IMG/VR virus record: IMGVR_UViG_3300023109_001426
Location: 1 to 33,804 of that record
From: a virus
Reading direction: 5' to 3' (one strand)
Length of the DNA stretch: 33,804 nucleotides
Both the position numbers and the translations under genes were made by a program. Below, in pieces: positions 2-26,011 of the stretch. Under the pieces are notes generated by a model, which searched no databases, was not told the origin of the DNA, and was given only the letters and a program-made list of their open reading frames with translations. The stretch's first letter is position 1, and each line of letters opens with the position of its first letter.

Positions 2-172
2 CATTTAGGCCCAGGCACGCTTCTTTATCGATATGCAATATTACACAATATTCATCCCGATAGTTATAAAATTGATTACGCAATAGTCCGAAGTACTATG
101 CAAGGTAAGGGACTAGACTCTGTCGAAGACTACGATAAAATAAAAAAAATTTGGCAGGAGTGGTACATATAA
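2..172 (+). CDS. C-terminal fragment of an unidentified protein (cut by window edge)
   Basis: An open frame runs from the window edge to a TAA at 170-172 and encodes at least 56 residues ending in IWQEWYI. No start lies inside the window. Its stop codon shares one base with the ATG of the following SGNH-like gene (TAATG), the same tight coupling seen along the rest of the plus strand, which supports it as a real gene. I do not recognise the family from this tail; it is hydrophilic with no membrane segment. Confidence 0.55.
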   Translation, partial: HLGPGTLLYRYAILHNIHPDSYKIDYAIVRSTMQGKGLDSVEDYDKIKKIWQEWYI

Positions 173-1032
173 TGAAATTAATCTTTGACGGAGATAGTTG
201 GACGTTCGGATGTGAAATTGCAGACCCTGTTTTAGCAGCACAGCACCCTCGAGGCACCCATCCAGGAGTATACGATTTTAAGGAAGCAAACGATTATTAC
301 AGAATTCCTAAAATTTATCCTCACTATATGGCAAAACAACTAGATTGCGACTATGTAAATCTAAGTTGGCCTGCTGATGACAACAGAACTATAATAGAAA
401 GAACAATGTCATATATTAGTACAGAATATCTAAGTTGTAATAAATCAACTGATGATATATTTGTAATTATTGGTTGGACAAGTCCTGAAAGAAATAGTTT
501 TTGGTGGAAAAATGGAAACTTTTCTAACAAGTTTAGATTATGGCCACAGGTTCAGAACTTTGGTGATAAGAAGCAGAAAAAACTTTGGAAGATGTATGTT
601 CAGCACATGTGGAACCCGGAAGAGTATATACCACGACACGTCTCAGCAATAACACAATTTCAAAATTTTTGTAATGCTCATAATATTAAATGGTTATCTT
701 ACAATGCGTTTTATCAAACGCCACATCAAGGACCTGATGGATGGCAAGATCTCGACATAATAGAAGAGCTGAAGAGTATTGATTACAACGTAGGTGGCTA
801 CTCATATTCTGATAACGGTAAAAGAAAGTCCAAAAAAATGGTTTTTAGGACGTTATGGGATACAGTTGATCCGGTGAGATTTTATAAAAAGGACCAACCT
901 AATAGTACATTTAAAAGTTTTATTGAAGCAAATGTAGATGATCCTTTAGTAGGTTGGCATCCCAGCCCGTCAGGGCACGAAGCGTGGGCAACTGAATTAG
1001 TAAGATACATAAAGGAAAATAATTTATTATGA
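172..1032 (+). CDS. SGNH/GDSL-hydrolase-like protein
   Basis: A 286-residue protein. Residues 4-11 read IFDGDSWT, matching SGNH block I with the nucleophile Ser in GDS. Near the C-terminus HPSPSGHEAW resembles block V, which carries the catalytic His. NLSWPADDN lies where block II is expected. SGNH enzymes are esterases, lipases or carbohydrate deacetylases/acyltransferases; no signal peptide is visible, so a cytoplasmic role is likely. A TTG at 151 would give a longer form, but the ATG at 172 overlaps the upstream stop and begins directly at the conserved strand, so I prefer it. The next gene is a second SGNH-like protein overlapping by 4 bases (ATGA). Family call fairly sure; substrate unknown. 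Confidence 0.7.
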   Translation: MKLIFDGDSWTFGCEIADPVLAAQHPRGTHPGVYDFKEANDYYRIPKIYPHYMAKQLDCDYVNLSWPADDNRTIIERTMSYISTEYLSCNKSTDDIFVIIGWTSPERNSFWWKNGNFSNKFRLWPQVQNFGDKKQKKLWKMYVQHMWNPEEYIPRHVSAITQFQNFCNAHNIKWLSYNAFYQTPHQGPDGWQDLDIIEELKSIDYNVGGYSYSDNGKRKSKKMVFRTLWDTVDPVRFYKKDQPNSTFKSFIEANVDDPLVGWHPSPSGHEAWATELVRYIKENNLL

Positions 1033-1847
1033 AAAAACTTGTAATATGTGGCGACAGTTTTGCAAAAGGAATTGGTTGTCGAGATCTTAAAAACGAACCG
1101 TACGGAAGTATAGTAGCCGATGAATTAGGATTAGAGCTTATAAATATTGCCAAAGGGTCCAGTACAAATTATAGTATATTTTTACAAGTATTATATGCAA
1201 TAGAGCATATTAATGATATTGAGATGATATTAGTTACTAATACTAGTTATGATAGGGTAGAATGGTTTGCACACGATGCCGTTACAAATAATAAATTTCC
1301 AACTAACTTTGATATAAATTATCATCAATATCCTCCGTATTATCCAGGAAGTTATATGCCACAGGCTGATGGCGAAACACATATAATGCATGATAGCAGT
1401 CGTTATAATGGAAAGATCTTTACAGAAAACTTATTTGGCGTAATTGATTATTTTGATAATGTAGTGGGCACAAAAAATGAAACTCCTACTGGATATTATG
1501 AAAGATTTTATAACGAGCCTAAGAGTAGAACAAAGATATTATATGACTATGCTCAGCATATACATGATCATCGTATAAACAAGATGCATAGTTTAGGAGC
1601 AATAGCAATGTGTCATATTGCTTTAAAAAATGCAAACATACCACACCTTATTGGTACCGAGCCCATAGATGAGTTTAAAAAATTTGTATTAATTGATAAT
1701 AATAATCATATGGAGATAGATTGGGGAGTATTATCAATTAAGTACCCTGATGATATACCCAGTATGCATACTAGTGCCAAAGGACATAGAGCAGCAGCAA
1801 AAATTGCATTAAAAAAAATTAAACAGAATAAGAGGAACAATGAATAA
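1029..1847 (+). CDS. SGNH/GDSL-hydrolase-like protein (second copy)
   Basis: A 272-residue protein starting MKKLVICGDSFAKG, with block I GDS at residues 8-10, a block-II-like NIAKGSSTN, and HTSAKGHRA near the C-terminus in the position of the catalytic His. It follows the first SGNH-like gene with a 4-base ATGA overlap and resembles it in motif order, so the pair may be ancient paralogs. No signal peptide or membrane segment is visible. It precedes a nucleotidyltransferase-kinase fusion, which suggests work on an activated sugar or alcohol, for example removing or moving an acyl group. That role is inferred from context only. Confidence 0.7.
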   Translation: MKKLVICGDSFAKGIGCRDLKNEPYGSIVADELGLELINIAKGSSTNYSIFLQVLYAIEHINDIEMILVTNTSYDRVEWFAHDAVTNNKFPTNFDINYHQYPPYYPGSYMPQADGETHIMHDSSRYNGKIFTENLFGVIDYFDNVVGTKNETPTGYYERFYNEPKSRTKILYDYAQHIHDHRINKMHSLGAIAMCHIALKNANIPHLIGTEPIDEFKKFVLIDNNNHMEIDWGVLSIKYPDDIPSMHTSAKGHRAAAKIALKKIKQNKRNNE

Positions 1848-3372
1848 ACATACAGTAATTTTACCAACTGCTGGATTAGGTACTCGGATGGGCGATTATA
1901 CTAAGCATCTTAATAAAGGATTATTGCCGTATAAAGAAAAGCCTGTTATTGCACATATTATAGATCAATTTCCTATAGACACACATTTTGTTATGCCAGT
2001 AGGATACTTAGCAGATCAAATTAAAGACTTTTGTGCTGTTGCATATAGCGATAGAAATATTACATTTGTAGATGTTGACTGGGAAAGTAATAAAGCTGGC
2101 ACAGGCTATTCTTTATTACAATGCAAAGATTATATCAATAGTTCTTTTTGGTATGTTACTTGTGATACTTTTTTTAACGAACCTGTGGTTACTAATACTC
2201 CTACACATGATTGCTATTATGTAAAAGATATTCCGCAAAAAGATAGTCATTTGTACACAATGTTTAAAACAAATAGTAATATAATACAAGAAATTACATT
2301 TAAAAAAGATGCACCTAGCGACTGGACTGCTTGGACAGGCCTAATGTATATTAGTGAATGGGAAAACTTTTTCGCTAAATTGACCGAACTAAACGATAAT
2401 GAATTTATACAACTAATACAACCTGGCACCATGTGTAAAACATTAAACAGTTGGTTGGATTTTGGCAGTCCTACATTATATCAAACAGCAGTAGCAAAAA
2501 GTCAAAAGTTTGATTTTAGTAAAAAAGACGAAGTTACTTATATTTGTAATAATCGTGTAGTAAAGTGGTGGCACGATAGCACTGTTTCAAAAAAGAAAAA
2601 TTGCAAGCCTGAATTAAATCCTAAAGTATTCCCTTCAAATTGTTTAGTTAAAGGGCAGTTCATGGCTTATGATTTTGTCCAGGGACAAACATTATACTCG
2701 TTTAATAATCCAGTAGTATTTAACAAATTATTAAATTGGCTCGACAACAATGTTTGGACAACTGTAAACAATGATTTGTCGCAATCAGCTATGCTATTTT
2801 ATAAAGACAAGACAATACGTAGGATAGAAAAGTTCCTAGATAAGCATCCTGTATTACAGAATATAACCCATGTAAATGGCATACAGATAAAATCACATCT
2901 AGAATACTTAGATAACATTGACTGGCAATATCTTTCAACTAATACGATACCCGGGTTTATACACGGCGATTTACAATTCGACAATATTATTATAAACAAC
3001 TCTGGAGACTTTATATTAATTGACTGGCGGCATGATTTTGCTGACACAGTTGACTACGGAGATATATATTATGACTTAGCAAAAATGGCCGGAGGATTTA
3101 TAGTCAATTATGCAAGTATAAAAAACTATAATTTTGATTTTGAAATAACTGGAACAGAAGTTACTATTAAAATTCCAAATATAGATGAGATTGATACTTA
3201 TCAACAACTGTTAAAAGAATTTGTATACTCAAAAGGATGGGATTATAAGAAAGTCCAACAATTAATACCTATTATATTTTGGAATATGAGCCCTTTACAC
3301 AAGTCGCCGTTTGGTATATTTCTCTGGTACCTTGGTATGAAAATGTTTGAAGAATTAGAAAATAATTATTAA
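1840..3372 (+). CDS. Bifunctional nucleotidyltransferase-phosphotransferase fusion
   Basis: 510 residues in two parts. The N-terminal part (about 1-235) begins with a sugar-phosphate nucleotidyltransferase signature, LPTAGLGTRMGDYTKHLNKG, at residues 9-28, followed by a VTCDTFF segment in the place of the usual metal-binding Asp. The C-terminal part has an APH/choline-kinase-type Brenner motif, HGDLQFDNI, near residue 375 and IDWRHD near residue 395, the catalytic and metal-binding loops. Such fusions resemble choline- or sugar-activation enzymes, in which the kinase makes a phosphate and the transferase makes the CDP/NDP derivative. A Shine-Dalgarno sequence (AGAGGAA) precedes the ATG, and the gene overlaps the upstream one by 8 bases. 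The domain calls are solid. The natural substrate (sugar, polyol or amino alcohol) cannot be read from sequence. Confidence 0.8.
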   Translation: MNKHTVILPTAGLGTRMGDYTKHLNKGLLPYKEKPVIAHIIDQFPIDTHFVMPVGYLADQIKDFCAVAYSDRNITFVDVDWESNKAGTGYSLLQCKDYINSSFWYVTCDTFFNEPVVTNTPTHDCYYVKDIPQKDSHLYTMFKTNSNIIQEITFKKDAPSDWTAWTGLMYISEWENFFAKLTELNDNEFIQLIQPGTMCKTLNSWLDFGSPTLYQTAVAKSQKFDFSKKDEVTYICNNRVVKWWHDSTVSKKKNCKPELNPKVFPSNCLVKGQFMAYDFVQGQTLYSFNNPVVFNKLLNWLDNNVWTTVNNDLSQSAMLFYKDKTIRRIEKFLDKHPVLQNITHVNGIQIKSHLEYLDNIDWQYLSTNTIPGFIHGDLQFDNIIINNSGDFILIDWRHDFADTVDYGDIYYDLAKMAGGFIVNYASIKNYNFDFEITGTEVTIKIPNIDEIDTYQQLLKEFVYSKGWDYKKVQQLIPIIFWNMSPLHKSPFGIFLWYLGMKMFEELENNY

Positions 3373-3415: not shown

Positions 3416-4096
3416 ATGTATGATATTGTTTTCATAAGTTACCAAGAACCTAATGCAGACGATAATTGGGAAGCACTTAAAAGTAGGTTTCCTAATGCCA
3501 AGCGCATACACGGTGTTAAAGGAATACATCAAGCACATATTGCTGCTGCAAAGAAATGTTTTACAAAGATGTTTTGGATTGTAGACGGCGATGCTGTGAT
3601 TATGGATGACTTTAATTTTGACTATGAAGTACCTAGTCACCAACAAGATCATGTGCATGTATGGCGTAGTAAAAACCCAGTTAATGATTTAGTATATGGC
3701 TATGGGGGAATTAAACTTTTTCCAAGACGTATGACTATACATATGGATACTAGTAAGCCTGATATGACCACAAGTATTACAGGTAAATTTAAAGCAATGC
3801 CACAGTTATCAAACGTAACTGCATTTAATACTGGACCATTCGAAACATGGAAAAGTGCATTTAGAGAATGTTGTAAACTAAGTTCAAAGATAATTGATAG
3901 ACAAAAGAATGAAGAAACAGAAAGTCGTTTACACATCTGGCAGACAGTAGGAAAAGACCGTCCTTACGGAGAATATGCAATTCAAGGGGCTATTCACGGC
4001 AAAAAATACGGTGAAAAGTATGCCGATTCCCCTGAAGATTTGCGTAGAATAAATGATTTTGATTGGCTACTGGAAAAGTTCAATGGAGACATTTGA
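3416..4096 (+). CDS. Glycosyltransferase-like protein with a DGD motif
   Basis: 226 residues. An N-terminal strand (YDIVFISYQEPN) is followed by FWIVDGDAVI at about residues 53-62, where D57-G58-D59 resembles the DxD metal/nucleotide-sugar motif of GT-A-type glycosyltransferases. Later come a GGIKLFPR segment and NTGPFETW. No membrane segment is visible. I recall proteins of this type in T4-like marine phage genomes without a proven function. It has its own promoter directly upstream and sits between a sugar-activating fusion and a methyltransferase, consistent with glycan synthesis. Family assignment is moderate; donor and acceptor are unknown. Confidence 0.55.
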   Translation: MYDIVFISYQEPNADDNWEALKSRFPNAKRIHGVKGIHQAHIAAAKKCFTKMFWIVDGDAVIMDDFNFDYEVPSHQQDHVHVWRSKNPVNDLVYGYGGIKLFPRRMTIHMDTSKPDMTTSITGKFKAMPQLSNVTAFNTGPFETWKSAFRECCKLSSKIIDRQKNEETESRLHIWQTVGKDRPYGEYAIQGAIHGKKYGEKYADSPEDLRRINDFDWLLEKFNGDI

Positions 4097-5057
4097 ACTA
4101 TTAGATAGATTTGAATTATTATATCCGACTAATTCAAAGTTATCAGATCTTCGCCGTGCTTATATAGATTATGATTTAAGTAGCTTGTTTAGATTGACTA
4201 ATAGCGACGAAGAGTTGCGCAAAGCAGTTTTAGAACAAAATTTACATAGTATATTTAGATTAATTGAAGGCAATGTTACAGAAGATATTGAAGATTTGCG
4301 TAAAGCAGTTTTAGAACAAAATTTACATAGTATATTTAGATTAATCGATGACGAAGATCTCAGAAAGCTTGTATTAGAAGATAATACATGGAAACTTTGG
4401 CCTATACTTGATAGGTATGTTAACACACAATTTACAGCAGCATTTAAAAACTTCTTTGTTAACGAAACAAAAATTTGGAATGACTGTTTTAGCAGAGGAC
4501 AATTAAAAAGCAAACTTTGGTTAGTGCAAGAACTTAAAAAATGTAATGTAGATCTCGGCATTGTGTTTTTGTGTGCAGGCTGGTATGCTACTCTTGCTAC
4601 AATGTTGTTTGAAAGTAACATCAACGTAGATAAAGTTAGATCTTTTGATATTGATCCTAGTTGCATAGATATTGCAAAAGTTTTTAACAAACCATGGTTA
4701 ATGGAAGATTGGCAATTTCAAGCAAGCACAGAAGATATTCATAACATTAATTATGTAGTTCATACTTATAATGTTACTAGGCACGACGGTAGTGTTCAAG
4801 CACTTACTGATCAACCAGATACAATTATAAATACAAGTTGTGAACACATTGAAAACTTTGCAGAATGGTATGATTTAATACCAGAAGGTAAATTAGTTGT
4901 ATTACAAAGCAATGATTATTATGAAATTGAAGAACACGTTAATTGTGTTGGAAGTATAGAAGAGTTTGTAGTAAAAGCACCTATGAATAATATTTTATAC
5001 AGTGGTGAATTTGATTTGCCCAAGTATAGGAGGTTTATGTTAATTGGATATAAGTAA
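4083..5057 (+). CDS. Class I methyltransferase-like protein with N-terminal tandem repeats
   Basis: 324 residues from the ATG at 4083, which follows GGAAAAG and overlaps the previous gene by 14 bases; an in-frame ATG at 4053 would lie deeper inside the previous gene. Residues 23-108 hold four copies of a 16-residue unit of the form LRKAVLEQNLHSIFRL, the middle two identical. The C-terminal two thirds (from about 150) resemble a Rossmann methyltransferase: VFLCAGWYATLA at the SAM loop, RSFDIDPSC as the acidic strand, and NTSCEHIENF further on. I recall such proteins in marine T4-like phages. The substrate is unknown; the repeats may bind a partner or polymer. Methyltransferase call moderate, repeat structure certain. 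Confidence 0.6.
   Translation: METFELLDRFELLYPTNSKLSDLRRAYIDYDLSSLFRLTNSDEELRKAVLEQNLHSIFRLIEGNVTEDIEDLRKAVLEQNLHSIFRLIDDEDLRKLVLEDNTWKLWPILDRYVNTQFTAAFKNFFVNETKIWNDCFSRGQLKSKLWLVQELKKCNVDLGIVFLCAGWYATLATMLFESNINVDKVRSFDIDPSCIDIAKVFNKPWLMEDWQFQASTEDIHNINYVVHTYNVTRHDGSVQALTDQPDTIINTSCEHIENFAEWYDLIPEGKLVVLQSNDYYEIEEHVNCVGSIEEFVVKAPMNNILYSGEFDLPKYRRFMLIGYK
4215..4345 (+). repeat. Two near-identical 50-base direct repeats inside the methyltransferase gene
   Basis: Copy one is at 4215-4264 and copy two at 4296-4345, with an 81-base (27-codon) period. The only difference I see is one base at the sixth position (C versus T, synonymous). The reading frame is kept. Flanking units at residues 23-38 and 93-108 are degenerate copies. 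The near-identity at DNA level points to recent duplication or gene conversion. Confidence 0.9.
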
Positions 5058-5265
5058 TCTTACAGTCAGACAACTACAGACAGAAAGTGCTCGTGCGCTA
5101 ACTACAATACAAGCTACAAATAACAATATTTGGCAGTTTAATAAACAAGCACACCATAATAGTCATAACTGGTACAAAGCAGTTATTGAATGGTATGTAA
5201 AGGAATACGGCGGACTTCCGAGTAAAGTAGGTCCGGGTAAAAATGTTAAGTTAGTATCGGAGTAG
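5044..5265 (+). CDS. Small hypothetical protein with a TTG start
   Basis: 73 residues beginning at TTG (5044) and reading DISNLTVRQLQTES after the initiator. A strong AGGAGG at 5028-5033 sits ten bases upstream, which supports this start although it overlaps the methyltransferase stop by 14 bases. The only nearby ATG (5037) is in the methyltransferase frame. The protein is hydrophilic, with a WYKAVIEWYVKEYGGLP segment and no cysteines or recognisable motif. It sits between the methyltransferase and the nitroreductase-like gene. I do not recognise it. Confidence 0.55.
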   Translation: MDISNLTVRQLQTESARALTTIQATNNNIWQFNKQAHHNSHNWYKAVIEWYVKEYGGLPSKVGPGKNVKLVSE

Positions 5266-5267
5266 TA

Positions 5268-5846
5268 ATGGATTTTAAAGACGCTTTATACGACAGAAGA
5301 AATATATCTTCGTGGTTAGATACCATACCACCAAAAGAAAAAATAGATGAAATAATAAAAATTTTACATGATTGTAGTCCATCTAAACAAAGTGAGGTTA
5401 GGTATAATATTGATATTATAGATAACAGTAACTTTGATAAAAGATTACAAATTTACAAAGCGTGTAAAGCAGATACTCACGAATCAAAACCTACAGGAAG
5501 ATATAATCCTCAGGTATTAGCACCTTGGCTAATATCGTTTTCAGACCAGCGCAGAAATCAAAGTAAACCTAGCAAGTCAGACATGTATTTAGACATTGGT
5601 ATTGCTGTTGCTACAATTTCTTATACAGCGTCTGCGTTAGGTTTAGATACTGGATTATGCAGATGTATAAATTACGAAGACCTTGCTAAGGAAGTTTTAG
5701 GATATAGGCCATTACAGCTTATAGGTATTGGATACAAATCTAGTAGTGAAACATATTATTGTCCGGTTTATAAAAAACAAATGCCTAATATTCGACCACA
5801 TATAAAACCTAATGTCGACGAGTATGTGCAATATGTACAACTATAA
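5268..5846 (+). CDS. Nitroreductase-family flavoprotein-like
   Basis: 192 residues. An early YDRRNISSW corresponds to the RRSxR-type FMN phosphate-binding start of nitroreductases. A central helix, DIGIAVATISYTASALGLD, is followed by LCRCINYEDLAKEVLGY and QLIGIGY, the usual C-terminal pattern of the family. Members bind FMN and reduce or oxidise nitro groups, quinones, enones or azoline rings, often as dimers. It starts just after the small TTG-start gene behind a CGGAG ribosome site, and its end overlaps the next radical SAM gene. Next to redox tailoring enzymes it may act on the same pathway intermediate; this is inference. Confidence 0.7.
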   Translation: MDFKDALYDRRNISSWLDTIPPKEKIDEIIKILHDCSPSKQSEVRYNIDIIDNSNFDKRLQIYKACKADTHESKPTGRYNPQVLAPWLISFSDQRRNQSKPSKSDMYLDIGIAVATISYTASALGLDTGLCRCINYEDLAKEVLGYRPLQLIGIGYKSSSETYYCPVYKKQMPNIRPHIKPNVDEYVQYVQL

Positions 5847-6900
5847 AGATATTAAAGCAATCCATTTAGAAGTAACGCAAAACTGTCAAGCCAATTGTCC
5901 TATGTGTGATCGAAACATGAACGGCAAAGGCATCAACCCACATATAAATTTAGATGAGCTCTCACTAGAGGATTGTAAAAAAATATTTACGCCTTCATTT
6001 ATTGCACAACTAGACACAATGTACATGTGTGGCAACCTAGGAGATCCTATTGTTGCTAAAGATACATTGGAAATATTCAAATACTTTAGATTACATAATG
6101 AAAAAATGTGGCTTAGTATGAATACTAATGCAGGAGCAAAAAATGAAGAATGGTGGAGAGACTTGGCTACGTGCCTTGGTAGAATGGGCGCTGTTATTTT
6201 TTCGGTTGACGGTCTCAGTGACACTAACCATATATATCGTCAAGGTGTTGTATGGAGCAATGTAGAGCGTAATATGAAAGCGTTTATAGCAGCAGGCGGC
6301 AGAGCTCGTTGGGACTTTTTAATCTTTGAACACAATCAACATCAAGTTGAAGAAGCAGAAGCACTTGCTACTGCTTGGGGATGTGAAAAGTTTATGAAGA
6401 AAAAAACAGGTCGTTTTGTTACACAAGATTCAAAAAAGAAAGACTCGCATCAAGCAGTTGATCGTAAGGGCAACAAGTCGGCAGAACTTAAAAAACCAGA
6501 TCAAAAATATCAAAACAAAGCACTATCTAAATTAGATGTAATTAAAAACAAGTACGGCAGTATGGATGCGTATTATGATGCAGCACCGGTAGTTTGCAAA
6601 GTAAAGAAAGAAAACAGTTTGTTTATTACAGCAGAAGGGTTGGCGTTACCATGTTGTTGGACTGCTGGACGTATGTACAAATGGTGGCACAAAGATCCTA
6701 AAGTAGAACAGATATGGGACTTTATACCTGATATAAGCGCCCTACAAGCACGGAACGGTCTAGAGGCAGTGTTTGCCACAGGCATATTTGAACGTATACA
6801 AGACAGCTGGGCAAAGCCTAGTTGTGGCGACGGCAAGTTAAAAGTGTGTGCTATGAAGTGCGGTGCTGAATTTGATCCATTTGCAGAACAATTTAAATAG
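5833..6900 (+). CDS. Radical SAM enzyme with C-terminal SPASM-like cysteines
   Basis: The radical SAM motif is VTQNCQANCPMC (Cx3Cx2C), which binds the catalytic 4Fe-4S cluster. A second cysteine set lies at the C-terminus: VCKVKK, LPCCWTAG and SCGDGKLKVCAMKCG, as expected for a SPASM-type auxiliary cluster. Three in-frame ATGs (5812, 5824, 5833) are possible. I chose 5833 (355 residues, starting MYNYKDIKAIHLEV) because it starts at the conserved core strand and keeps the overlap with the previous gene at 14 bases; none has a good ribosome site. SPASM enzymes commonly modify peptides or sugars through hydrogen-atom abstraction. The substrate is unknown. It differs from the five twitch enzymes downstream in having its extra cluster at the C-terminus. 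Confidence 0.85.
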   Translation: MYNYKDIKAIHLEVTQNCQANCPMCDRNMNGKGINPHINLDELSLEDCKKIFTPSFIAQLDTMYMCGNLGDPIVAKDTLEIFKYFRLHNEKMWLSMNTNAGAKNEEWWRDLATCLGRMGAVIFSVDGLSDTNHIYRQGVVWSNVERNMKAFIAAGGRARWDFLIFEHNQHQVEEAEALATAWGCEKFMKKKTGRFVTQDSKKKDSHQAVDRKGNKSAELKKPDQKYQNKALSKLDVIKNKYGSMDAYYDAAPVVCKVKKENSLFITAEGLALPCCWTAGRMYKWWHKDPKVEQIWDFIPDISALQARNGLEAVFATGIFERIQDSWAKPSCGDGKLKVCAMKCGAEFDPFAEQFK

Positions 6901-18438: not shown

Positions 18439-18450
18439 TTGTGTTATACT
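18422..18450 (+). promoter_or_regulatory. Strong sigma70-like promoter giving a leaderless transcript
   Basis: TTGACA at 18422-18427, exactly 17 bases, then TATACT at 18445-18450. The only ATG nearby is at 18456, five bases after the -10 box, so transcription should start at or next to the start codon. The -35 box is inside the previous coding sequence. No Shine-Dalgarno sequence is present. Confidence 0.7.
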
Positions 18451-18455
18451 CAACT

Positions 18456-19064: not shown

Positions 19065-19717
19065 ATGAAATTATTTTTTATATTACTATAAGCTTTATTT
19101 GGTGGCAAATTCTTTCTTCAGTAGCAATCAGTGCAGGATATCATAGATATTTTACTCATCAGTCATATACTGCTCCAGTTTGGTATGAATACATTGTGCT
19201 ATTATTAGGTCCATTGTCAGGATCTGGTCATGTATTAGGTTGGGCCGGAGTTCATAGGATGCATCATGCCTTTAGTGATACTGAAGAAGATCCTCATAGT
19301 CCTAAATATAAAGGATTTTGGAAAGTTTTTTTGTCTACATTTAAAGTGCCATATATACCACGCAAATTTGTTAGAGATTTATTAAGAAATAAACGAGTTA
19401 TGTTTTTTTATCGTCATCATAATAAAATTAGATTAGGCAGTTTTTTAGTAGGTCTAATCCTATTACCGATAGAATGGTTTATTATTATTTTTATTACTCC
19501 TGTTTTATATGGATATCTTGGTTTTGGACTTATAAATGCAATGTGTCATAAGAACGGCGTAGTTAGAAATAGTTGGATAGCTAATATTTTTACAGGAGGA
19601 GAAGGGTGGCATGTTAATCATCATGAAAATAGTAAAGACTGGCGTATAGGAAAAACATGGTGGCAATGGGATCCGGGGGCATGGATTATTAAACTGATAA
19701 AGGTAAAGAATGTATAA
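19061..19717 (+). CDS. Membrane fatty-acid desaturase-like protein 1
   Basis: 218 residues from ATG 19061. The three histidine boxes of di-iron desaturases are present: HRYFTH (H28-H33), HRMHH (H65-H69) and HVNHH (H184-H188), with GEGWHVNHH typical of acyl-CoA/acyl-lipid delta-9-type enzymes. Hydrophobic stretches at about 5-25, 40-60 and 125-155 fit a membrane protein. The family is usually 250-380 residues, so this is a compact form. The ATGA overlap with the methyltransferase fixes the start; an in-frame TTG at 19031 is unlikely. It would introduce a double bond in a lipid acyl chain or a related substrate at the host membrane. Confidence 0.85.
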   Translation: MNEIIFYITISFIWWQILSSVAISAGYHRYFTHQSYTAPVWYEYIVLLLGPLSGSGHVLGWAGVHRMHHAFSDTEEDPHSPKYKGFWKVFLSTFKVPYIPRKFVRDLLRNKRVMFFYRHHNKIRLGSFLVGLILLPIEWFIIIFITPVLYGYLGFGLINAMCHKNGVVRNSWIANIFTGGEGWHVNHHENSKDWRIGKTWWQWDPGAWIIKLIKVKNV

Positions 19718-20438
19718 TTTTGTAGTTGAAAAAAATAGCTTTGATACTAATGATGTAGAAGATTTATACAACGGTGCAGTAGGTGTCCTAGTAATTAAAA
19801 ATGCTAAACAAGATGATATTGAATTTTTCGGTGAGCTTCTCCCGCAAGACCTATATAAGAGCAAAGTTATTCCGATCGGAACAAAAAACAAAGAGGAAGA
19901 TCATGTCTGGAGTACAACAGAAATGCTTTGGCACCAGGATCGTGCGTATAATGAAAACGTACATCCATTTGTAGGATTGTACTGTATTGCCGCAGACGAA
20001 GGTTCTAGTGCAACTTATTTCTGTGATATGCAACAAGTATACAAAGACAGCTCACAAGAACTTAAAGATGCTTGCGAAGCTGTTGTAGCAGTCAATGAAG
20101 TTGCAAAATATTTTAAACAAGCCGACTACCCGCATACATTTAGAAATAAAGTTTGGGAAAGAGCATATCGTGCCAAAGCACGAGCTAATCACAAACTTGT
20201 ACAAGAAGATCAATACGGCAAATATTATTTTTATAGTGAAGCATATACACTTACTGAACATGAACAGGAACTTAAACAGTTAAGTTACCAAGATAAGTAT
20301 GTGTTTAAGCATGACTGGGAGCCTAACGATTTGGTAGTTTACAATAACTATAAAGTTGCACACAAGCGAGACTTTACTCCACCTGACATAGATAGACGTC
20401 ATTTAAGATTTGCATTAAACAAAAAGGTATTAGCATGA
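19710..20438 (+). CDS. TauD/TfdA-type 2OG/Fe(II) dioxygenase
   Basis: 242 residues. LWHQDRAY gives H75 and D77 as iron ligands; GLYCIAADEGSSATYFCD follows as the conserved strand after the HxD; VAHKRDF supplies the distal H218, and RRHLRFAL holds the Arg that would bind 2OG. This is the full TauD/clavaminate-synthase pattern. The family hydroxylates or desaturates small molecules and lipids. It sits between two desaturase-like genes with overlaps of 8 and 4 bases, so an acyl or alkyl substrate is plausible. Substrate is inferred from context only. Confidence 0.8.
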   Translation: MYNFVVEKNSFDTNDVEDLYNGAVGVLVIKNAKQDDIEFFGELLPQDLYKSKVIPIGTKNKEEDHVWSTTEMLWHQDRAYNENVHPFVGLYCIAADEGSSATYFCDMQQVYKDSSQELKDACEAVVAVNEVAKYFKQADYPHTFRNKVWERAYRAKARANHKLVQEDQYGKYYFYSEAYTLTEHEQELKQLSYQDKYVFKHDWEPNDLVVYNNYKVAHKRDFTPPDIDRRHLRFALNKKVLA

Positions 20439-21064
20439 GCAGTAATCAATTCTTAATACTATTACATCATTTACTAATTGCACTAGGCATCTTTGCATAT
20501 GGATTTGATCCTCTGTGGGCATTTGTTTTGGTGTTTACTGCAATTGTATGGGGAGGTATAGTTGGCGGTAAAATTATGCATTACCACTTTGCTCATTCAA
20601 CATACCAAGACAGTGTACTTAATTATATTTTAACATTTATAGTTATGTTTACAGGTCTTGGTAGTGTATTAAGTTTTGTTGCTAGTCATAGACAGCATCA
20701 TCAATATGCTGATACAGAAAAAGATCCACATTCGCCTACACACATAGGAAAGTTTAACGTGTATGTTTTACGTTGGAAAAAACAAAAGATAAGTCCTAAA
20801 CTGTTTAGAGATATCGCAAAAAGTAGATTTCAAAGATTTATGCACAAGTATTGGTTATATTTTCAACTTACTAGTATTGCAGTACTTGTTATTATAAATC
20901 CTGTGTTTGTTTGTTTTGGTATTAGTTTGTTTGTAGCAACAACATTTCATATTGCTGGCATTACAAACGTTTTAGGACATTTAAACGGTGAACCACGCAA
21001 TGCACCAGAGTTAATATTCACACACGGACCTGCTTGGAAACATGCAGACCACCATAAACACTAG
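20435..21064 (+). CDS. Membrane fatty-acid desaturase-like protein 2, C-terminally short
   Basis: 209 residues. Histidine boxes: HYHFAH (H49-H54), HRQHH (H85-H89) and HADHH (H203-H207). Four hydrophobic segments at about 8-22, 27-45, 62-84 and 145-175 fit a membrane desaturase. The stop follows only two residues after the last box, whereas relatives usually continue with 30 or more residues that form part of the active-site cap; the neighbour at 19061 has that tail. The gene could still be active, as all ligands are present. It overlaps the TauD-type gene by 4 bases. Confidence 0.78.
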   Translation: MSSNQFLILLHHLLIALGIFAYGFDPLWAFVLVFTAIVWGGIVGGKIMHYHFAHSTYQDSVLNYILTFIVMFTGLGSVLSFVASHRQHHQYADTEKDPHSPTHIGKFNVYVLRWKKQKISPKLFRDIAKSRFQRFMHKYWLYFQLTSIAVLVIINPVFVCFGISLFVATTFHIAGITNVLGHLNGEPRNAPELIFTHGPAWKHADHHKH

Positions 21065-21071: not shown

Positions 21072-21632
21072 ATGATAACAGTTAATACATGGCAAGACTT
21101 TAGAGACAGACCTGAAGTCTTGGAAAAAATAGATTTTTTACTAGAAAAAGCGCAAACTGATCCGAACAATAGAATGCCAGCAAACTATAGTAAAGATAAA
21201 ATAGCATTAGATACAACACAAGCAGTAAGCATTGCCGAAAGAAATGGCGAGCCCTTTGGTTATAGTTGTATTATGCACAGACCTATATACAAAGATAGTG
21301 TTAGAGTAATTAGTAGATTTTACTACTCGCCGATAAAAACAAAAGGATTAAGAAACTCCGAAATGCCATTAAAATACATTTGGAGAGATCATACTATTCA
21401 AATGATTGAACAACAAATTGCAGTAGCATACGATATGGGATATTCAGGTGCTTTTATTTCACAGCATGATAAAGCCCTAAAAGTGTTTAAACGTATGTTT
21501 TGCGGACTTGAAGTATTGTGTGGTGTAAAAGGATGGCAGTTTGATCCTGACAAAAAATACAAAGTATGCAATGGAGCAGATTGCGAGCATTGGATATTTT
21601 GGCACAAAAACTTATACTTAGAGGAAGTCTAA
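21072..21632 (+). CDS. GNAT-like acyltransferase candidate
   Basis: 186 residues. The order of AVSIAERNGEPFGYSCI, SVRVISRFYYSP, a helix-rich MIEQQIAVAYDMGYSGAFIS and ALKVFKRM resembles a GNAT fold: strands 2-4, then the acyl-CoA-binding region, then the helix-4/strand-6 tail. The acyl-CoA R/Q-x-x-G-x-G/A loop is not clear, so the call is weak. AGGTGA lies before the ATG. It sits between a desaturase-like and a TauD-like gene. It could transfer an acyl group to the same product or be an unrelated phage protein. Confidence 0.4.
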   Translation: MITVNTWQDFRDRPEVLEKIDFLLEKAQTDPNNRMPANYSKDKIALDTTQAVSIAERNGEPFGYSCIMHRPIYKDSVRVISRFYYSPIKTKGLRNSEMPLKYIWRDHTIQMIEQQIAVAYDMGYSGAFISQHDKALKVFKRMFCGLEVLCGVKGWQFDPDKKYKVCNGADCEHWIFWHKNLYLEEV

Positions 21633-21633: not shown

Positions 21634-22611
21634 ATGGAAACAATTACAGAAATACAAGTAGATGATATCAAACGTTTATCAGATACACAAGTTAAACAAA
21701 TTGCAGTACTAGCAGCTCATCGTGTTAATGTTCTTATTAAAGGACAAGAACTAACAAAAGCAGACTATGCCAGAATGATGCAGTGCTTCGGTGTAAATCC
21801 AAAAAGAGATGTTTGGTTTGAGGATAAGGATCATCACGAAGTAATGTATGTTACTAATAAACTGATGTGTGGAGATGACGGTGACAAGCCAGGTGTGTTT
21901 AGTAGAGGCGAACTTAATTGGCACCAAAACGGAACACTAACATTAGATCCAGAAGATTGTGTTGTATTGTACTGTGAAGAGCCTACAAAAGATCCGTGTA
22001 ACACGCACTTTACAAATGGTGTTGCTGCATACAACAGTTTACCACAAGATGTAAAAGATAAAATTGAAAATACAGAACTTATCTTAACAGCAGATACACG
22101 TAGCTTTCACAAACTTAAAAACCCACACTTTGTAAAGCGTAGTATTAAGCCTCGTATACTTGATAACGAACGTGTTTGGACAGAAGTTCCTATGGAAGAA
22201 ATTGCTGAATTGTGGAAAATACAAGATAGAACACGTTCTGCAGGAAGTACAATCGAACGTGAAATGATGGAAAAAGTTGAAAAGTATTCAGAGCTGGGCG
22301 CTCGTTGGAATATGATTTACAAGCGTCTTGTACATAGACATAGACTAACTGGTATTAAAGGTCTTTATTTTCCGTTTTCAAATGTTGTAGGATTTCATGA
22401 TATTCCAGAAGATGAATGGCAAGATTTGTTTAACTTCTTAAAAGATCATTTCTTAAAAACAAGTGCAGAAGTTAAATGGGAACACGGAGATATTGTTTTG
22501 TTTGACAATACACAAGGGTTGCATAAAAGAAGTGTATTCCCAAAAGACGAAAACGGTAATGATCAATCTCGTGAATTATGGCGAGGAGCATTTTGGTACC
22601 ATGACATTTAA
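21634..22611 (+). CDS. TauD/TfdA-type oxygenase with HQN instead of HxD
   Basis: 325 residues. The expected iron motif reads LNWHQNGT: H97 is kept but the acidic ligand is N99. The distal part is intact, with H297 in TQGLHKRSVF and REL-W-R (R314/R317) for 2OG. Overall length and the VVLYCEEP strand after the motif fit TauD. Canonical members use HxD/E; halogenases have HxA/G, which leaves a site for halide. An Asn may change iron affinity or chemistry, or the protein may be a non-catalytic relative. GAGGAAG precedes the ATG. It overlaps the following small oxygenase by 11 bases. Confidence 0.72.
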   Translation: METITEIQVDDIKRLSDTQVKQIAVLAAHRVNVLIKGQELTKADYARMMQCFGVNPKRDVWFEDKDHHEVMYVTNKLMCGDDGDKPGVFSRGELNWHQNGTLTLDPEDCVVLYCEEPTKDPCNTHFTNGVAAYNSLPQDVKDKIENTELILTADTRSFHKLKNPHFVKRSIKPRILDNERVWTEVPMEEIAELWKIQDRTRSAGSTIEREMMEKVEKYSELGARWNMIYKRLVHRHRLTGIKGLYFPFSNVVGFHDIPEDEWQDLFNFLKDHFLKTSAEVKWEHGDIVLFDNTQGLHKRSVFPKDENGNDQSRELWRGAFWYHDI

Positions 22612-23065
22612 TAGCTCTTATCTTAAAATTGCTGACTTTGTAACTACAGAAGAACGTGAAAGCTTATTGTCTTTAAGTGAGTCAGATGATTTTATTCAAC
22701 ATAGGAGCACTAAAAGTGGAAAACTAAGTCCGTTAAATTTTTTGCCTGTAACGTTCCGCAATTTTGATCGTGCATGGATTATGAAAATGCTACCACACGC
22801 AGAACAAGAAATGCATACAGATGGCAAAAACTTAGGAAGAAATGTATTAATTATACATCCTCTTACTGATAACTATTCACCTATAGTAACACAAAATGGC
22901 AATGTAAATACTACAGTTATTGTTAACACGCAGTCTTATCATGCAGTTTACAACAATGAATGTACTAGATTAAATTTACAAATTCCCTTTTCTTATAATT
23001 GGGAAGATATACAAGACAAAGAACACGAATTTTGGAATATTGTAAAGGAGTTGTATAATGTCTAA
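22601..23065 (+). CDS. Small 2OG/Fe(II) oxygenase-like protein
   Basis: 154 residues from ATG 22601, after GAGGAG (22583-22588). MHTDG gives H72 and D74; SYHAVYNN gives distal H114; R123 in CTRLNLQIPF would bind the co-substrate carboxylate. This order fits aspartyl/asparaginyl-hydroxylase-like cupins. A longer frame back to 22463 lies inside the previous gene and lacks a ribosome site, so I use the inner start. It overlaps the next oxygenase by 8 bases, forming a run of three oxygenase genes. Confidence 0.65.
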   Translation: MTFNSSYLKIADFVTTEERESLLSLSESDDFIQHRSTKSGKLSPLNFLPVTFRNFDRAWIMKMLPHAEQEMHTDGKNLGRNVLIIHPLTDNYSPIVTQNGNVNTTVIVNTQSYHAVYNNECTRLNLQIPFSYNWEDIQDKEHEFWNIVKELYNV

Positions 23066-23732
23066 AGCAATGGAAAAGTATTACTCGTACCGAAAACTAG
23101 AAGCAGATGACTATTGGTCGATACATAGAAATTTTTTGACACCTACAAAACTTACAATTGATATAGATCAATTTAATTTGTGTATGCATCAGTATAAAGA
23201 TTACTTTAAGTCATGGGGAAATAATAGGCCTGAGTTAAATGATATAAGGTTAGGATTACCTCTTGTAAATTTACATGGAAAATACGATGATATAGATGAT
23301 ATAAGTATAGGTCCGTTAGATCAATATAATAAAGCTAATCCAGAAAATCCTTTATTAGAAAATGATTTTACTGTGACTACTGAAATATTAGATCATAGTT
23401 GCTTTAATGAGTTAAACATTATAAAAGATTATATGTGTCGCAGTTGTATATTATATTGGAAAAAAGCTGCTAATTTTCTTCCGCATTATGATGTATTAGT
23501 GCCTACTGTAAATTTACGACTATGGGGAACTAATGATCCAGCGAGTGTATCATTGCGTGTACAGCGTGATGGAGAAATGATAGAAGTAGCACATACTGCC
23601 GAACCTGGAAGATTATATTTAATTGAAACAAGCACTTTACATGATGCAGAATGTATCGGAAATGAAGTTTATCAATTTTTCTTAGCATTAAATATAGATA
23701 GTTATGATATTATAAAATCAGAAATGAGATAA
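23058..23732 (+). CDS. 2OG/Fe(II) oxygenase-like protein (Asp/Asn hydroxylase type)
   Basis: 224 residues. FLPHYDVLVPTVNLRLW gives H143 and D145 as iron ligands with the R of NLRLW nearby; AEPGRLYLIETSTLHDAECIGNE carries the distal H195. The pattern resembles the aspartyl/asparaginyl beta-hydroxylase cupin group. The N-terminal 120 residues are not recognisable. AAGGAG precedes the ATG with good spacing. It closes the run of three overlapping oxygenase genes. Substrate unknown. Confidence 0.65.
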   Translation: MSKAMEKYYSYRKLEADDYWSIHRNFLTPTKLTIDIDQFNLCMHQYKDYFKSWGNNRPELNDIRLGLPLVNLHGKYDDIDDISIGPLDQYNKANPENPLLENDFTVTTEILDHSCFNELNIIKDYMCRSCILYWKKAANFLPHYDVLVPTVNLRLWGTNDPASVSLRVQRDGEMIEVAHTAEPGRLYLIETSTLHDAECIGNEVYQFFLALNIDSYDIIKSEMR

Positions 23733-23737
23733 ATTTA

Positions 23738-25375
23738 ATGATAAATTTAAAATTTGTAAATATAGGGATAATTGTAAACGGATCAGATAAAATGATGCGA
23801 ATTAACCCAAATTTTTATCATTTGAAATCTTATTATGAATTCAAAGGAAATCATTTTAAAAAAGTCAATTGGTTGCCGCGCATTTTAGATCCTTGGATTA
23901 GTGTTAATGAAATAGTCGATCAAGTTGCACAGGAAAATATAAATGTTTTATGTTTAAGTTTTTTCTCATGGAATCATGATAAGACTATGATGGTTGCAAA
24001 AATAGTTAAACGTAAATTTCCGCATATTAAAATAATTGCAGGAGGCCCAAACTTATGGGCGCATAAAGACGAAAATTTTTTTATTGAACATTCTTTTATA
24101 GATTATGTAGTGTACGGCGACGGAGAAGAAGCATTTTCAGAAATAATAGATAGCATTGTTGAAAATCGACAATTAAAAGATGACCAAGCTGTAAATATAG
24201 TAACTAAAGAAAAAAAATATCCATTCAGAGTATTTAAAGATCTAAATTATCAAAATACTAGTGCTATTCTTAGTTGTAAAAAAGATATAAAAGAAGATGT
24301 GGAATATTTCTATAAAAAGGAACTTGAAGTAGTTATCCATTGGGAAAGAGCAAGAGGATGTCCCTACAAGTGTAGCTTCTGTGATTGGAGCAGTGGATTA
24401 CATCATAAGGTCACTAGATCTAAATCTGATTGGAAATCAGAAATAGACTTTCTTTTTTCTCTAAATATGAGTATTACACCATCTGATGCTAATTGGGGTA
24501 TTTTTAAAGAAGATATAGAAATTACTCAATATGCAGCAGAAAGAGGAAATTTTTATATACTAAATCTTGCTAAGTTACAAAAAGATAGAGCTTTTGAAAT
24601 GTCTAGAATTATCTTTAGAGAAAATGAAAAAAAGTCAAACCCGAATCAATGGCTGAAATTAAGTTTTCAAGATTTAGACGAAGATGTCCTAAATGCAATC
24701 GAACGACCCGAAATACCCTGGATCGAACATAAATCTTATATTTTAGATTTTGTGGAAGAATTTCCAAAAGCAGTTATTATAGGCGAAATTATATTAGGAT
24801 TACCTAATCAAAAAAGACAAAACTTAATAAATCAATTTTATGAATTTGAAAAAGTAAGCATACAGCTAGTATTTGCACATTTATGGGAAGTTTTACCTAA
24901 CTCACCTGCATACGATGAAGAATATCAAAGAAAATATCAAATAGAATTTAAAAAGTTTACTAGTGTTATACAAACTTTTAACAGCATAGAAGATATACAT
25001 ACGTCAGAAAAAAACGGTGATGCAGGTTGGACAAATTCTACATTTGTTATAAAAAATAATTTTATGGATTTTGAAGACATCATATTTACTAAATTAGTGG
25101 CAAGAATGTATGGAGCATTTAAAATAAAAGATAAGACTTTTCCTTTTAGTATCATTGAAAATTTAATAATACCGAGTTTAAGTATAGAAGCTAAACGTGT
25201 TACGGTTCAAATACTTAAAGAAGGAATATATGGAATTTGTGAAGAAGAAACCGGTGCATGGTATGATTTAGAAACATATTTTATGGACGATAACAACGTA
25301 AAAAAGTTTTTAATGAAATATCAGATAGCAACTGATATACATGCAATGCTAAATATTTATAAAAAAGAAAATTAA
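23738..25375 (+). CDS. B12-domain-type radical SAM enzyme
   Basis: 545 residues. Residues 1-150 resemble the cobalamin-binding domain of class B radical SAM enzymes: NINVLCLSFFSWN, HIKIIAGGPNLW and DYVVYGDGEEAF are in order, though the DxHxxG motif is absent, as in many members. The core motif is C208, C212 and C215 in RGCPYKCSFCDW. A C-terminal part includes ETGAWYDLE. Enzymes of this type methylate unactivated carbons, close rings or use B12 in other ways, with B12 supplied by the host. The gene is AT-rich. A hairpin at its stop may end transcription. It is followed by one more oxygenase. Confidence 0.8.
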   Translation: MINLKFVNIGIIVNGSDKMMRINPNFYHLKSYYEFKGNHFKKVNWLPRILDPWISVNEIVDQVAQENINVLCLSFFSWNHDKTMMVAKIVKRKFPHIKIIAGGPNLWAHKDENFFIEHSFIDYVVYGDGEEAFSEIIDSIVENRQLKDDQAVNIVTKEKKYPFRVFKDLNYQNTSAILSCKKDIKEDVEYFYKKELEVVIHWERARGCPYKCSFCDWSSGLHHKVTRSKSDWKSEIDFLFSLNMSITPSDANWGIFKEDIEITQYAAERGNFYILNLAKLQKDRAFEMSRIIFRENEKKSNPNQWLKLSFQDLDEDVLNAIERPEIPWIEHKSYILDFVEEFPKAVIIGEIILGLPNQKRQNLINQFYEFEKVSIQLVFAHLWEVLPNSPAYDEEYQRKYQIEFKKFTSVIQTFNSIEDIHTSEKNGDAGWTNSTFVIKNNFMDFEDIIFTKLVARMYGAFKIKDKTFPFSIIENLIIPSLSIEAKRVTVQILKEGIYGICEEETGAWYDLETYFMDDNNVKKFLMKYQIATDIHAMLNIYKKEN

Positions 25376-25393
25376 AACTGTTCTCACAGTTTT
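25374..25393 (+). terminator. AT-rich hairpin after the B12 radical SAM gene
   Basis: AAAACTGT (25374-25381), loop TCTC, ACAGTTTT (25386-25393): a perfect 8-bp stem overlapping the stop codon, followed by ATT. The stem is weak in GC and the downstream T run is short, so it may slow or end transcription only partly. It could instead modulate translation of the next gene, whose ATG is 13 bases further on. Confidence 0.4.
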
Positions 25394-25405
25394 ATTGCAC
25401 TAAGT

Positions 25406-26011
25406 ATGTTTAAGAAAGTTGTTGAAAATAAAATGTTTAAAAAAATAGAATTAGATATAGATTATAATAAACTAATACATGAAGTAACAACTGTCAGTAA
25501 ACAGCGCATGGAAGATCCAATGTCCTGGTCATATCAAATTGCAACACAATGCAGAATAGATAATACAGATTCTGAATTTCAGCTCAAAGAAAGCACTAAT
25601 AGTTTATTATACGACTGGAGTAATTGGGATCAAAATTCAGGCAAACCACCACCAAAAAAACCTCAAGATCAGCGTTTGACACAAGAACAGTTTGCAGAAA
25701 CTTGTAATTTATTTAAAGACACTATAATTGAAGAAGTAAATGAACTTGTAAAAGAACAGTACGGTGGTGTTAGAGGACGTATATTAAGTTTACCGCCTAA
25801 ATTTAGCATGACTTATCATTATGATGAATCACCTAGAATTCACATACCTATTAAAGTAAATGAAAAAACATTTATGGTATTAGAGAAAACATGTTATTGG
25901 TTTGAAGTTGAAAATGCTTATTTTGTAGATACTAGGAAATGGCATACTGCTGTGAACGCTAGTATCGATAGCCGTATACATCTTGTTTATTGTGTAAATA
26001 GATTAAACTAA
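25406..26011 (+). CDS. 2OG/Fe(II) oxygenase-like protein (Asp/Asn hydroxylase type), end of island
   Basis: 201 residues. GGVRGRILSLPP leads into TYHYDESPRIHIPI with H138, D140 and nearby R144; RKWHTAVNAS gives the distal H180, and SRIHLVY has R190 for 2OG. The order matches the aspartyl/asparaginyl beta-hydroxylase family. Two starts are possible: 25406, or a second ATG at 25433; both begin MFKK. Neither has a clear ribosome site. The stop codon overlaps the end of the convergent tail-fibre gene by 9 bases. Sixth oxygenase of the island. Confidence 0.7.
   Translation: MFKKVVENKMFKKIELDIDYNKLIHEVTTVSKQRMEDPMSWSYQIATQCRIDNTDSEFQLKESTNSLLYDWSNWDQNSGKPPPKKPQDQRLTQEQFAETCNLFKDTIIEEVNELVKEQYGGVRGRILSLPPKFSMTYHYDESPRIHIPIKVNEKTFMVLEKTCYWFEVENAYFVDTRKWHTAVNASIDSRIHLVYCVNRLN

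Follow-up and report, generated by a model that had tools for sequence, protein, structure and literature searches.

The closest published parallels to the locus that we describe come from marine phages. Host-recognition islands of pelagimyophages contain glycosyltransferases and can differ by cassettes of radical SAM enzymes, and the published passages on this cluster read it as modifying the host surface (Zaragoza-Solas 2020, PMC7029224). Also, 12 radical SAM genes are listed for the T4-like environmental viral genome TARA_ERS488813_N000010 (Nishimura 2017, PMC5332604).

Here, we analyze a 33,804-nt stretch of DNA (the window), which is a piece of an uncultured jumbo myovirus of the gp23 type. 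We somewhat favor the explanation that the island of enzymes in this window is a radical SAM-driven surface-glycan module of uncultured jumbo phages, with interchangeable decorations.

The phage and its island

The window lacks the gene for the Gp23 major capsid protein (PF07068) because it is a fragment; longer relatives (G002-G005) do contain it. Related jumbo-phage records reach 400 kb, and a megablast search of the window against catalogued phages gave zero matches. The first-pass annotation likened these genes to those of T4-like phages. This suits the capsid gene; by capsid, however, the jumbo phages Phosso, 2.275.O, and PA5oct/MIJ3 come closest among catalogued phages, and none of these encodes the core radical SAM enzymes described below.

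The genes from 172 to 26011 are all on the plus strand, and when an overlooked 73-amino-acid gene is counted, no gap between them exceeds 43 bp. The content that was first read from motifs (eight radical SAM enzymes with CX3CX2C, six oxygenases of the 2OG/Fe(II) type, and two desaturases, all on one strand) was confirmed. The island extends beyond the start of the window, as a near-identical contig (G001) has a ninth radical SAM gene and a second glycosyltransferase upstream. At its other end, the island converges with g30 (26003..27142, minus strand), which encodes a fiber-like protein with an Mtd N-terminal domain (PF18454, E = 1.3e-12), and then come phage anchor genes for a VWA/metallopeptidase-like protein, a MoxR ATPase, and an exonuclease (28765..33728, minus strand; phrog_1314, phrog_1297, and phrog_107). 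Adjacency to the fiber-like g30 and contents that are hypervariable between phages are both marks of a host-recognition island, and the presence of a glycosyltransferase within it (g4, of the GT-A fold) is a mark of a glycan or host-recognition island.

In a scan for the T4 late promoter (TATAAATA), the count was below chance expectation, and scans for sigma-70 promoters and for terminators gave no clear signal. We discounted a perfect sigma-70 box at 15917 because it ends just 6 nt upstream of the start codon of g17.

An invariant core in fixed order

Related phages share a core whose order is fixed: g4 (glycosyltransferase), g5 (methyltransferase fold), the 73-amino-acid protein, g7 (R1), g10 (R2), and g17 (R7). 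This order is kept in 16-17 of 17 phage records, which were picked by g17 alone. The glycosyltransferase is present in 16 of those 17, and R2 has an ortholog in 19 of 20 g17-anchored phage records. The core genes are under purifying selection (dN/dS of 0.02-0.17 where measurable). The core is found in hundreds of contigs from uncultured marine jumbo phages. R7 has 574 relatives in IMG/VR and zero matches in 50,697 catalogued phage records, so this abundant viral trait has been beyond experimental reach so far.

The glycosyltransferase g4 (3416..4096; AlphaFold2 pLDDT of 93.7) has a GT-A fold with a DxD motif (DGD/DAD), in which D59 is invariant among homologs and D57 is nearly so. Its best Foldseek matches in the PDB are GT-A glycosyltransferases such as WrtF, RmlT, ArnC, and GalNAc-T, with modest TM-scores of about 0.4; a PDB sequence search with the g4 profile found nothing. 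g5 (4053..5057; pLDDT of 88.7) combines a helical-repeat N-terminus with a class I SAM methyltransferase fold, and its top Foldseek matches are SAM methyltransferases.

The eight CX3CX2C motifs are in g7, g10, g12, g13, g14, g15, g17, and g28. Seven of these eight genes score above the cutoff for Pfam's Radical_SAM family; g28 is a B12-binding radical SAM enzyme. g10, g12, g13, g14, and g15 also pass the curated whole-protein cutoff (170 bits) of NF033640 (N_Twi_rSAM, a twitch-domain family), and with E-values down to 2e-126, a chance match is excluded. In these proteins, cysteines in the arrangement C...CC...CxxC lie N-terminal to the CX3CX2C motif. g7 (36 bits) and g17 (43 bits) miss this cutoff.

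Within the core, R1 (5812..6900; PF04055, E = 1.2e-7) is recognized by synteny as well and has C-terminal cysteines; R2 (8576..9991) is an N-terminal-twitch enzyme (422 bits to NF033640); and R7 (15951..17063), which is the most conserved radical SAM enzyme judging from its IMG/VR relatives, has C-terminal auxiliary cysteines (C309/C331/C352/C357). Outside the core, the twitch enzymes R3 (g12, 10877..12058, 309 bits), R4 (g13, 12051..13088, 175 bits), and R6 (g15, 14226..15317, 213 bits) belong to cassettes, and R5 (g14, 13075..14226, 397 bits) is common but non-core; a PDB sequence search with g14 found nothing. g28 (23738..25375) is a cobalamin-binding enzyme resembling C-methyltransferases of the TokK/KedN5 type (E = 1e-29 to TokK, 7kdx), and its match to NF033712 (4e-25) is under the cutoff. 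Related islands have up to 21 radical SAM genes per phage fragment.

A bacterial counterpart

The five core enzymes, without the 73-amino-acid protein, also cluster in the chromosomes of Bdellovibrionota. We found an ortholog of R2 in 20 of 369 Bdellovibrionota genomes; next to it lies R7 in 17 of these and R1 in 15. Several of these clusters adjoin polysaccharide genes: their neighbors include UDP-GlcNAc 2-epimerase, GT1/GT4, Bac_transf, Polysacc_synt_2, NAD-epimerase, AsnB, GT2, and acyltransferase-SGNH genes. Some loci have no obvious polysaccharide setting, such as L323 (by pheST) and L355 (by a MoxR-like gene), which counts against a glycan product. Because the core enzymes are found near sugar-coat genes of some of these Bdellovibrio-related bacteria, the island most likely makes or edits a surface sugar.

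We found gp23 in none of the 19 R2-bearing Bdellovibrionota genomes that we searched, so the bacterial clusters are not these phages. We rejected L320, L321, and L366 as host genes: they are phage contigs in metagenome-assembled genomes, and the two genomes involved hold gp23, which in G391 shares a contig with R7. The R2 sequences separate cleanly into a phage group and a bacterial group, which argues against a recent exchange of the core between phages and Bdellovibrionota; any transfer must be old. The counterpart also offers a genetic entry, as the five enzymes could be knocked out or produced in bacteria grown in the laboratory.

The 73-amino-acid protein

The 73-amino-acid core protein (5044..5265, with a TTG start) was overlooked at first. 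Its gene stands between g5 and g7 in all testable phage loci (with the methyltransferase in 57/57, the glycosyltransferase in 56/56, and R1 in 46/46). It has 280 relatives in IMG/VR and a dN/dS of 0.03-0.06, and its matches in PHROGs are all at E > 0.1. Its absence from the bacterial clusters that hold the core enzymes sits poorly with a glycan product.

Perfect linkage, together with conservation similar to that of the enzymes, would be expected if the radical SAM enzymes modify this protein or the adjacent fiber and the glycosyltransferase then glycosylates the modified residue, as in RiPP-like or glycoprotein maturation. Many SPASM/twitch radical SAM enzymes of known substrate are peptide maturases (PMC9012708), which counts against a glycan product; the structural neighbors of g4 include SunS/ThuS peptide glycosyltransferases and GalNAc-Ts; and a fiber gene lies at the end of the island. 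However, the 73-amino-acid protein is conserved along its entire length, with no apparent split into leader and core; no peptidase or dedicated exporter was matched in the island; and in Bdellovibrionota the enzymes stay clustered without this protein, in some cases beside sugar-nucleotide genes. We consider modification of a protein or peptide to be rather unlikely.

Swappable cassettes around the core

Around the core, fixed slots hold exchangeable cassettes that make up the remaining radical SAM enzymes, oxygenases, desaturases, and transferases. g8 (6914..7642) is a cytidylyltransferase of the CMP-acylneuraminate/PseF type (PF02348, E = 1.1e-16), although its score against the PseF model (87.7 bits) is under the cutoff of 205.7. 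It forms a sub-cassette with g9 (7642..8568), which has no family match; the two are adjacent in 5/5 occurrences. A separate sub-cassette is g11 with g12 (and sometimes g13); g11 and g12 are paired in 10 of 14 cases. Other cassettes are the nitroreductase-like g6 (5268..5846; PF00881, E = 2.7e-5) and two (g1 and g16) of the three proteins that had been called SGNH-like. Of the three, g1 (172..1032; GDS motif) does match a family (DUF6071, PF19547, E = 1.3e-7), but g16 (15310..15954; with homologs in other islands) and g2 (1029..1847; GDS motif, no family match) are SGNH-like by motif only. g3 (1840..3372) has a nucleotidyltransferase-like N-terminus fused to an APH kinase domain (PF01636 above and PF12804 below cutoff).

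The six oxygenase-like genes (g11, g22, g25, g26, g27, and g29) are upheld, on a basis that varies by gene. Pfam supports the TauD-family oxygenase g22 (19710..20438; WHQD; PF02668, E = 5e-22), the TauD-family protein g25 (21634..22611; PF02668, E = 4e-28), and the aspartyl/asparaginyl beta-hydroxylase-like g29 (25406..26011; Asp_Arg_Hydrox, PF05118, E = 3.7e-6). For the cassette gene g11 (9975..10853; H122xD124...H266, with K281) and for g27 (23058..23732; H143xD145...H195), the support is an HxD...H motif that is invariant among homologs; a PDB sequence search with the g11 profile found nothing. g26 (22556..23065) has an HTD...H motif and no family match. The ligands of the 2-His-1-carboxylate triad (HxD/E...H) are present in g11, g22, g27, and g29. 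As first noticed, g25 has HQN instead (WHQN replacing WHxD), while its distal histidine and arginine are retained. Most of its TauD clade has HxN (WHxN), and the close relatives of g25 are in near-identical contigs only. Separately from the island, this clade offers a way to study non-heme iron chemistry that lacks a carboxylate ligand.

Both desaturases match FA_desaturase: g21 (19064..19717; PF00487, E = 5e-9), a membrane di-iron enzyme of the fatty-acid-desaturase type with histidine boxes, and g23 (20435..21064; PF00487, E = 4e-8). The desaturases and AspH-like genes would also fit lipid or protein targets, which speaks against a glycan.

Also in the tail, g20 (18441..19064) is a class I methyltransferase (PF13489, E = 2e-8), g24 (21072..21632) has homologs that recur in the tails of other islands, and g19 (17668..18438), which had been called methyltransferase-like by reading alone, has no match in the libraries. 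The QueC-like label of g18 (17063..17674), a PP-loop ATPase (PF06508, E = 5e-11), stands, but well under the QueC equivalog cutoff (38 versus 150 bits). If g18 were to act with the TauD-like, methyltransferase, and radical SAM genes on phage nucleobases, then the island would hypermodify DNA or RNA, and PHROG names such as QueE-like radical SAM and tRNA methyltransferase point the same way. But g18 lies outside the core, the window has no match to a QueD or transglycosylase family, and the bacterial counterpart is chromosomal and partly beside polysaccharide genes. We view hypermodification as very improbable.

The first-pass annotation proposed a single tailoring pathway and suggested checking for ordered co-occurrence. 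For the core, a single pathway is supported and the order is borne out very strongly (in phages and, minus the 73-amino-acid gene, in bacteria), but a single pathway is not supported for the tail genes g19-g29, which are scattered, and the order of the genes outside the core is mixed or not kept. Earlier, g14 had seemed universal (19/19 records) because those records had been selected by g14; it is absent from 17 of 17 g17-anchored records, so we rejected it as a core gene. Within one pair of phages, dS varies from 0.14 to 1.18 between neighboring genes, which indicates a gene-level recombination mosaic. These three observations could also mean that the core alone is a pathway and that the genes for the other radical SAM enzymes, oxygenases, and desaturases are auxiliary and sit in a hot spot independently of each other. 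Nevertheless, the cassettes hold fixed slots and travel in pairs, and the same enzyme types recur together in very different islands and also on Bdellovibrionota contigs (L322 and L364). Independence of these genes seems quite unlikely. With the core in fixed order and the other genes variable, we propose a fixed core pathway with interchangeable add-ons, rather than one pathway with eight radical SAM enzymes.

How a surface-glycan module might work

If the island is a surface-glycan module, then the core would make one unusual sugar-containing unit. g4 would attach a sugar; the radical SAM enzymes with auxiliary clusters may carry out dehydrogenation, epimerization, deoxygenation, or carbon-carbon steps on the attached sugar, for which the oxidation of an aminocyclitol by the twitch enzyme BtrN is a precedent (PMC9012708); and g5 might act on the product or assist. 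The 73-amino-acid protein could be a phage-specific adaptor, carrier, or substrate. The cassettes would decorate the unit differently in each phage, with extra twitch radical SAM enzymes, 2OG oxygenases, the cytidylyltransferase with g9, SGNH proteins, the B12-radical SAM methylase, or desaturases. As a result, the surface of the infected cell might be altered so that superinfection or readsorption is blocked, or else the virion might be coated, and competition between phages would favor fast diversification of the decorations.

Among the Pfam matches of the 29 island genes, there is no Wzx/Wzy/ligase-type gene, flippase, polymerase, or complete nucleotide-sugar pathway, so we do not class the island as a biosynthetic locus for O-antigen or capsule. 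This absence also speaks against the glycan explanation.

If the glycan explanation is true, then these phages alter surface sugars by radical chemistry that is combinatorial and sensitive to oxygen. This would open a new front in the competition of phages with each other and with their hosts, and it would be a source of new enzymes for sugar editing. More tentatively, the core (GT-MT-73aa-R1-R2-R7) may be an undescribed biosynthetic system, in which successive radical SAM enzymes and a small dedicated protein make a unit that is unknown in characterized bacteria, either a sugar of an unusual kind or a small carrier protein that has been modified. The enzymes would be common to Bdellovibrionota and to jumbo phages of the ocean; the phages would vary the system combinatorially with up to about 20 radical SAM enzymes, B12-radical SAM methylases, and TauD-like enzymes that lack the carboxylate ligand, some of which might halogenate or otherwise not hydroxylate.

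Comparison with known systems

Five of the radical SAM enzymes (g10 and g12-g15) belong to the NF033640 subfamily, whose model names no reaction, and g7, g17, and g28 fall outside it. BtrN, the dehydrogenase of butirosin biosynthesis, offers a possible analogy, as a radical SAM enzyme with one auxiliary cluster that acts on a cyclitol (PMC9012708). However, the twitch domain is C-terminal in BtrN and N-terminal in g10 and its relatives, and the homology seen is that of the general superfamily. Among TokK/KedN5-type B12-dependent methylases, g28 matches TokK over 340 residues, but it is under the cutoff for the KedN5 subfamily and its pathway context differs.

TARA_ERS488813_N000010 is similar in that it is a T4-like phage from the sea and has roughly a dozen radical SAM genes; it appears in the relevant part of its report as an inventory of Fe-S proteins, without analysis of arrangement or function (PMC5332604). 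The pelagimyophage host-recognition cluster is also similar in that it is hypervariable, lies near tail fibers in gp23-type marine myophages, and includes glycosyltransferases and some radical SAM enzymes (PMC7029224). In contrast, our phages are jumbo-sized, with a PA5oct/Phosso-like capsid protein, and the passages that describe the pelagimyophage cluster present radical SAM enzymes only as added cassettes, with no invariant GT-MT-73aa-R1-R2-R7 core, small protein, or bacterial counterpart (PMC7029224). A phage with a dozen radical SAM enzymes had already been published; what appears to be new is the core, together with its counterpart in bacteria and the small protein.

Enzymes of the island

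The first-pass annotation claimed eight radical SAM (rSAM) genes with a CX3CX2C motif in the island (genes g1 to g29, 172-26011, plus strand), and motif and family searches of the window found all eight to be real. Five are above the cut-off for NF033640, an NCBIfam family of twitch-domain rSAM proteins, and have C...CC...CxxC upstream of the CX3CX2C core; g7 and g17 have extra C-terminal cysteines. g28 is cobalamin-binding by family and matches TokK (1e-29). Pfam confirmed the desaturase, TauD, and Asp hydroxylase labels. Of the other proposed oxygenases, g11 and g27 have an invariant HxD...H, and for g26 the motif is the sole support. The SGNH labels and some methyltransferase labels fared less well than the others.

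A fixed core with variable slots

In 19 long phage records, the genes GT (g4), MT (g5), R1 (g7), R2 (g10), R5 (g14), and R7 (g17) occur in the order GT-MT-R1-R2-R5-R7. Because these records had been chosen by g14, we repeated the order test with records chosen by g17. The order was invariant: R1 and R2 were present in 17/17 records and GT and MT in 16/17 each, while g14 was in 0/17. (Counted over 20 g17-chosen records, R2 was in 19.) Thus, the core is g4, g5, a gene for a 73-amino-acid protein, g7, g10, and g17.

Variable genes occupy fixed slots around this core: the nitroreductase-like g6 before R1; g8 and g9 between R1 and R2 (together in 5/5 cases); g11/g12/g13 between R2 and R7; and desaturases, TauD, AspH, and B12-rSAM genes after R7. 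Between two close phages, the synonymous divergence (dS) of adjacent genes ranges from 0.14 to 1.18, which is the pattern expected of recombining cassettes. The highest rSAM count was 21, in one 117-kb fragment; two single phage fragments, G008 (117 kb) and G016 (57 kb), have 20-21 rSAM genes each. g17 has 574 relatives in IMG/VR and none in catalogued phages.

The 73-amino-acid gene (5044-5265, TTG start) lies between g5 and g6 and was missed by the first-pass annotation. Across aligned phages, its protein is 55-75% identical to the window's copy, with dN/dS of 0.03-0.06. IMG/VR contains 280 relatives, and a search of 50,697 phage records gave no match; the protein belongs to no family. In 57 distinct loci chosen by this gene alone, g5 was directly upstream in 57/57, g4 was upstream in 56/56, and g7 was downstream in 46/46.

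A bacterial counterpart and the proposed product

We scanned 84,980 genomes with g17 and obtained a few Bdellovibrionales/Bacteriovoracaceae contigs. We sampled two phyla for g10. Using score thresholds set by hand, we found orthologs in 20 of 369 Bdellovibrionota genomes (about 50-63% identity) and in 0 of 397 genomes of the second sample, excluding its seed, a phage-carrying MAG titled Gammaproteobacteria that was the sole source of g10 there. Adjoining g10 in the 20 genomes were R7 in at least 17, R1 in at least 15, and relatives of g4/g5 in at least 14; these counts are minima, as the loci are of unequal length. The cluster contigs are bacterial, because they reach 1.6 Mb, pheST is close to the cluster in one case, and the T4-type major capsid protein gp23 was absent from the 19 cluster-bearing genomes searched. 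(Both MAGs that hold phage contigs have gp23.) The R2 sequences form separate phage and bacterial groups, which implies an old split. Bdellovibrionota might be the host or the donor lineage of these phages.

Chromosomal R1-R2-R7 clusters with GT/MT are found in the Bdellovibrionota contigs L323-L326 and L351-L365, several with polysaccharide genes. Leading up to the cluster, L357 encodes UDP-GlcNAc 2-epimerase, GT1/GT4, NAD-epimerase, a bacterial sugar transferase, and Polysacc_synt_2, and L325 encodes an epimerase, AsnB, GT2, and an acyltransferase-SGNH fusion. Two Bdellovibrionota contigs (L364 and L322) also have desaturase, AspH-like, g24-like, and TauD genes that resemble the phage tail cassettes.

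The predicted structure of g4 is a GT-A glycosyltransferase (pLDDT 93.7; the best structural matches are WrtF, RmlT, and ArnC, with modest TM-scores of about 0.4), and structure prediction and structural matches suggest that g5 has a SAM methyltransferase fold. Together with the bacterial context, these predicted folds favour a surface glycan as the core product. The glycosyltransferase would provide or transfer a sugar, the auxiliary-cluster rSAMs would change its carbon skeleton, and the cassettes would decorate the product. BtrN is a precedent for a twitch rSAM that acts on a cyclitol (PMC9012708). We infer both the identity of the molecule and its place, on host or virion. The core might instead modify a peptide or protein: peptide maturases are numerous among SPASM/twitch rSAMs, and the 73-amino-acid protein keeps this reading in play. 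We consider this reading less likely than a glycan. The bacterial clusters retain the core enzymes and lack the protein, which argues that the protein is not an obligatory core substrate. A surface glycan remains our preferred product.

A TauD clade with HxN

The TauD-family protein g25 (21634-22611) has WHQN in place of the TauD-type iron ligand motif WHxD. WHxN is also the motif of most phage relatives of g25 and of one relative from a Bdellovibrionota contig, alongside a few D, A, and H variants. The distal His and Arg are retained; g22-type relatives keep WHxD. (The g25-clade relatives are L250, L256, L029, L305, L287, L252, L014, L246, L296, L303, L272, G009, G019, and L322.) 2OG halogenases and AspH are known cases in which the carboxylate ligand has been lost (PMC13168262). 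The g25 clade may perform halogenase-like or other non-standard Fe/2OG chemistry.

Phage identity and known systems

The window is a fragment from IMG/VR, whose records are fragments. In its minus-strand flank (26003-33728), the gene next to the island and convergent with it (26003-27142) encodes a fibre-like protein whose N-terminal domain is of the Mtd type by family match. Phage anchor genes for a VWA/metallopeptidase-like protein, a MoxR ATPase, and an exonuclease also lie in this flank. The same island occurs in larger records (G002-G005, 172-400 kb) that encode gp23, and the G002 protein shares 70-75% identity with those of the jumbo phages Phosso, Vibrio 2.275.O, and PA5oct/MIJ3. Megablast found no relative of the window among catalogued phages. 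Distant rSAM genes (about 23% identity) are present in catalogued Vibrio jumbo phages (OZ196521.1, Vibrio phage K566), at five places in one of these genomes; such phages could be a laboratory model for phage rSAM islands.

In the papers searched, which lay mainly outside subscription journals and preprints, neither the fixed core nor the 73-amino-acid protein is described, and we saw no account of the Bdellovibrionota cluster or of the HxN clade. Phage rSAM genes themselves have been described: one paper reports 12 of them in a T4-like marine genome of 183 kb (PMC5332604), and another reports rSAM cassettes in the host-recognition islands of pelagimyophages (PMC7029224).
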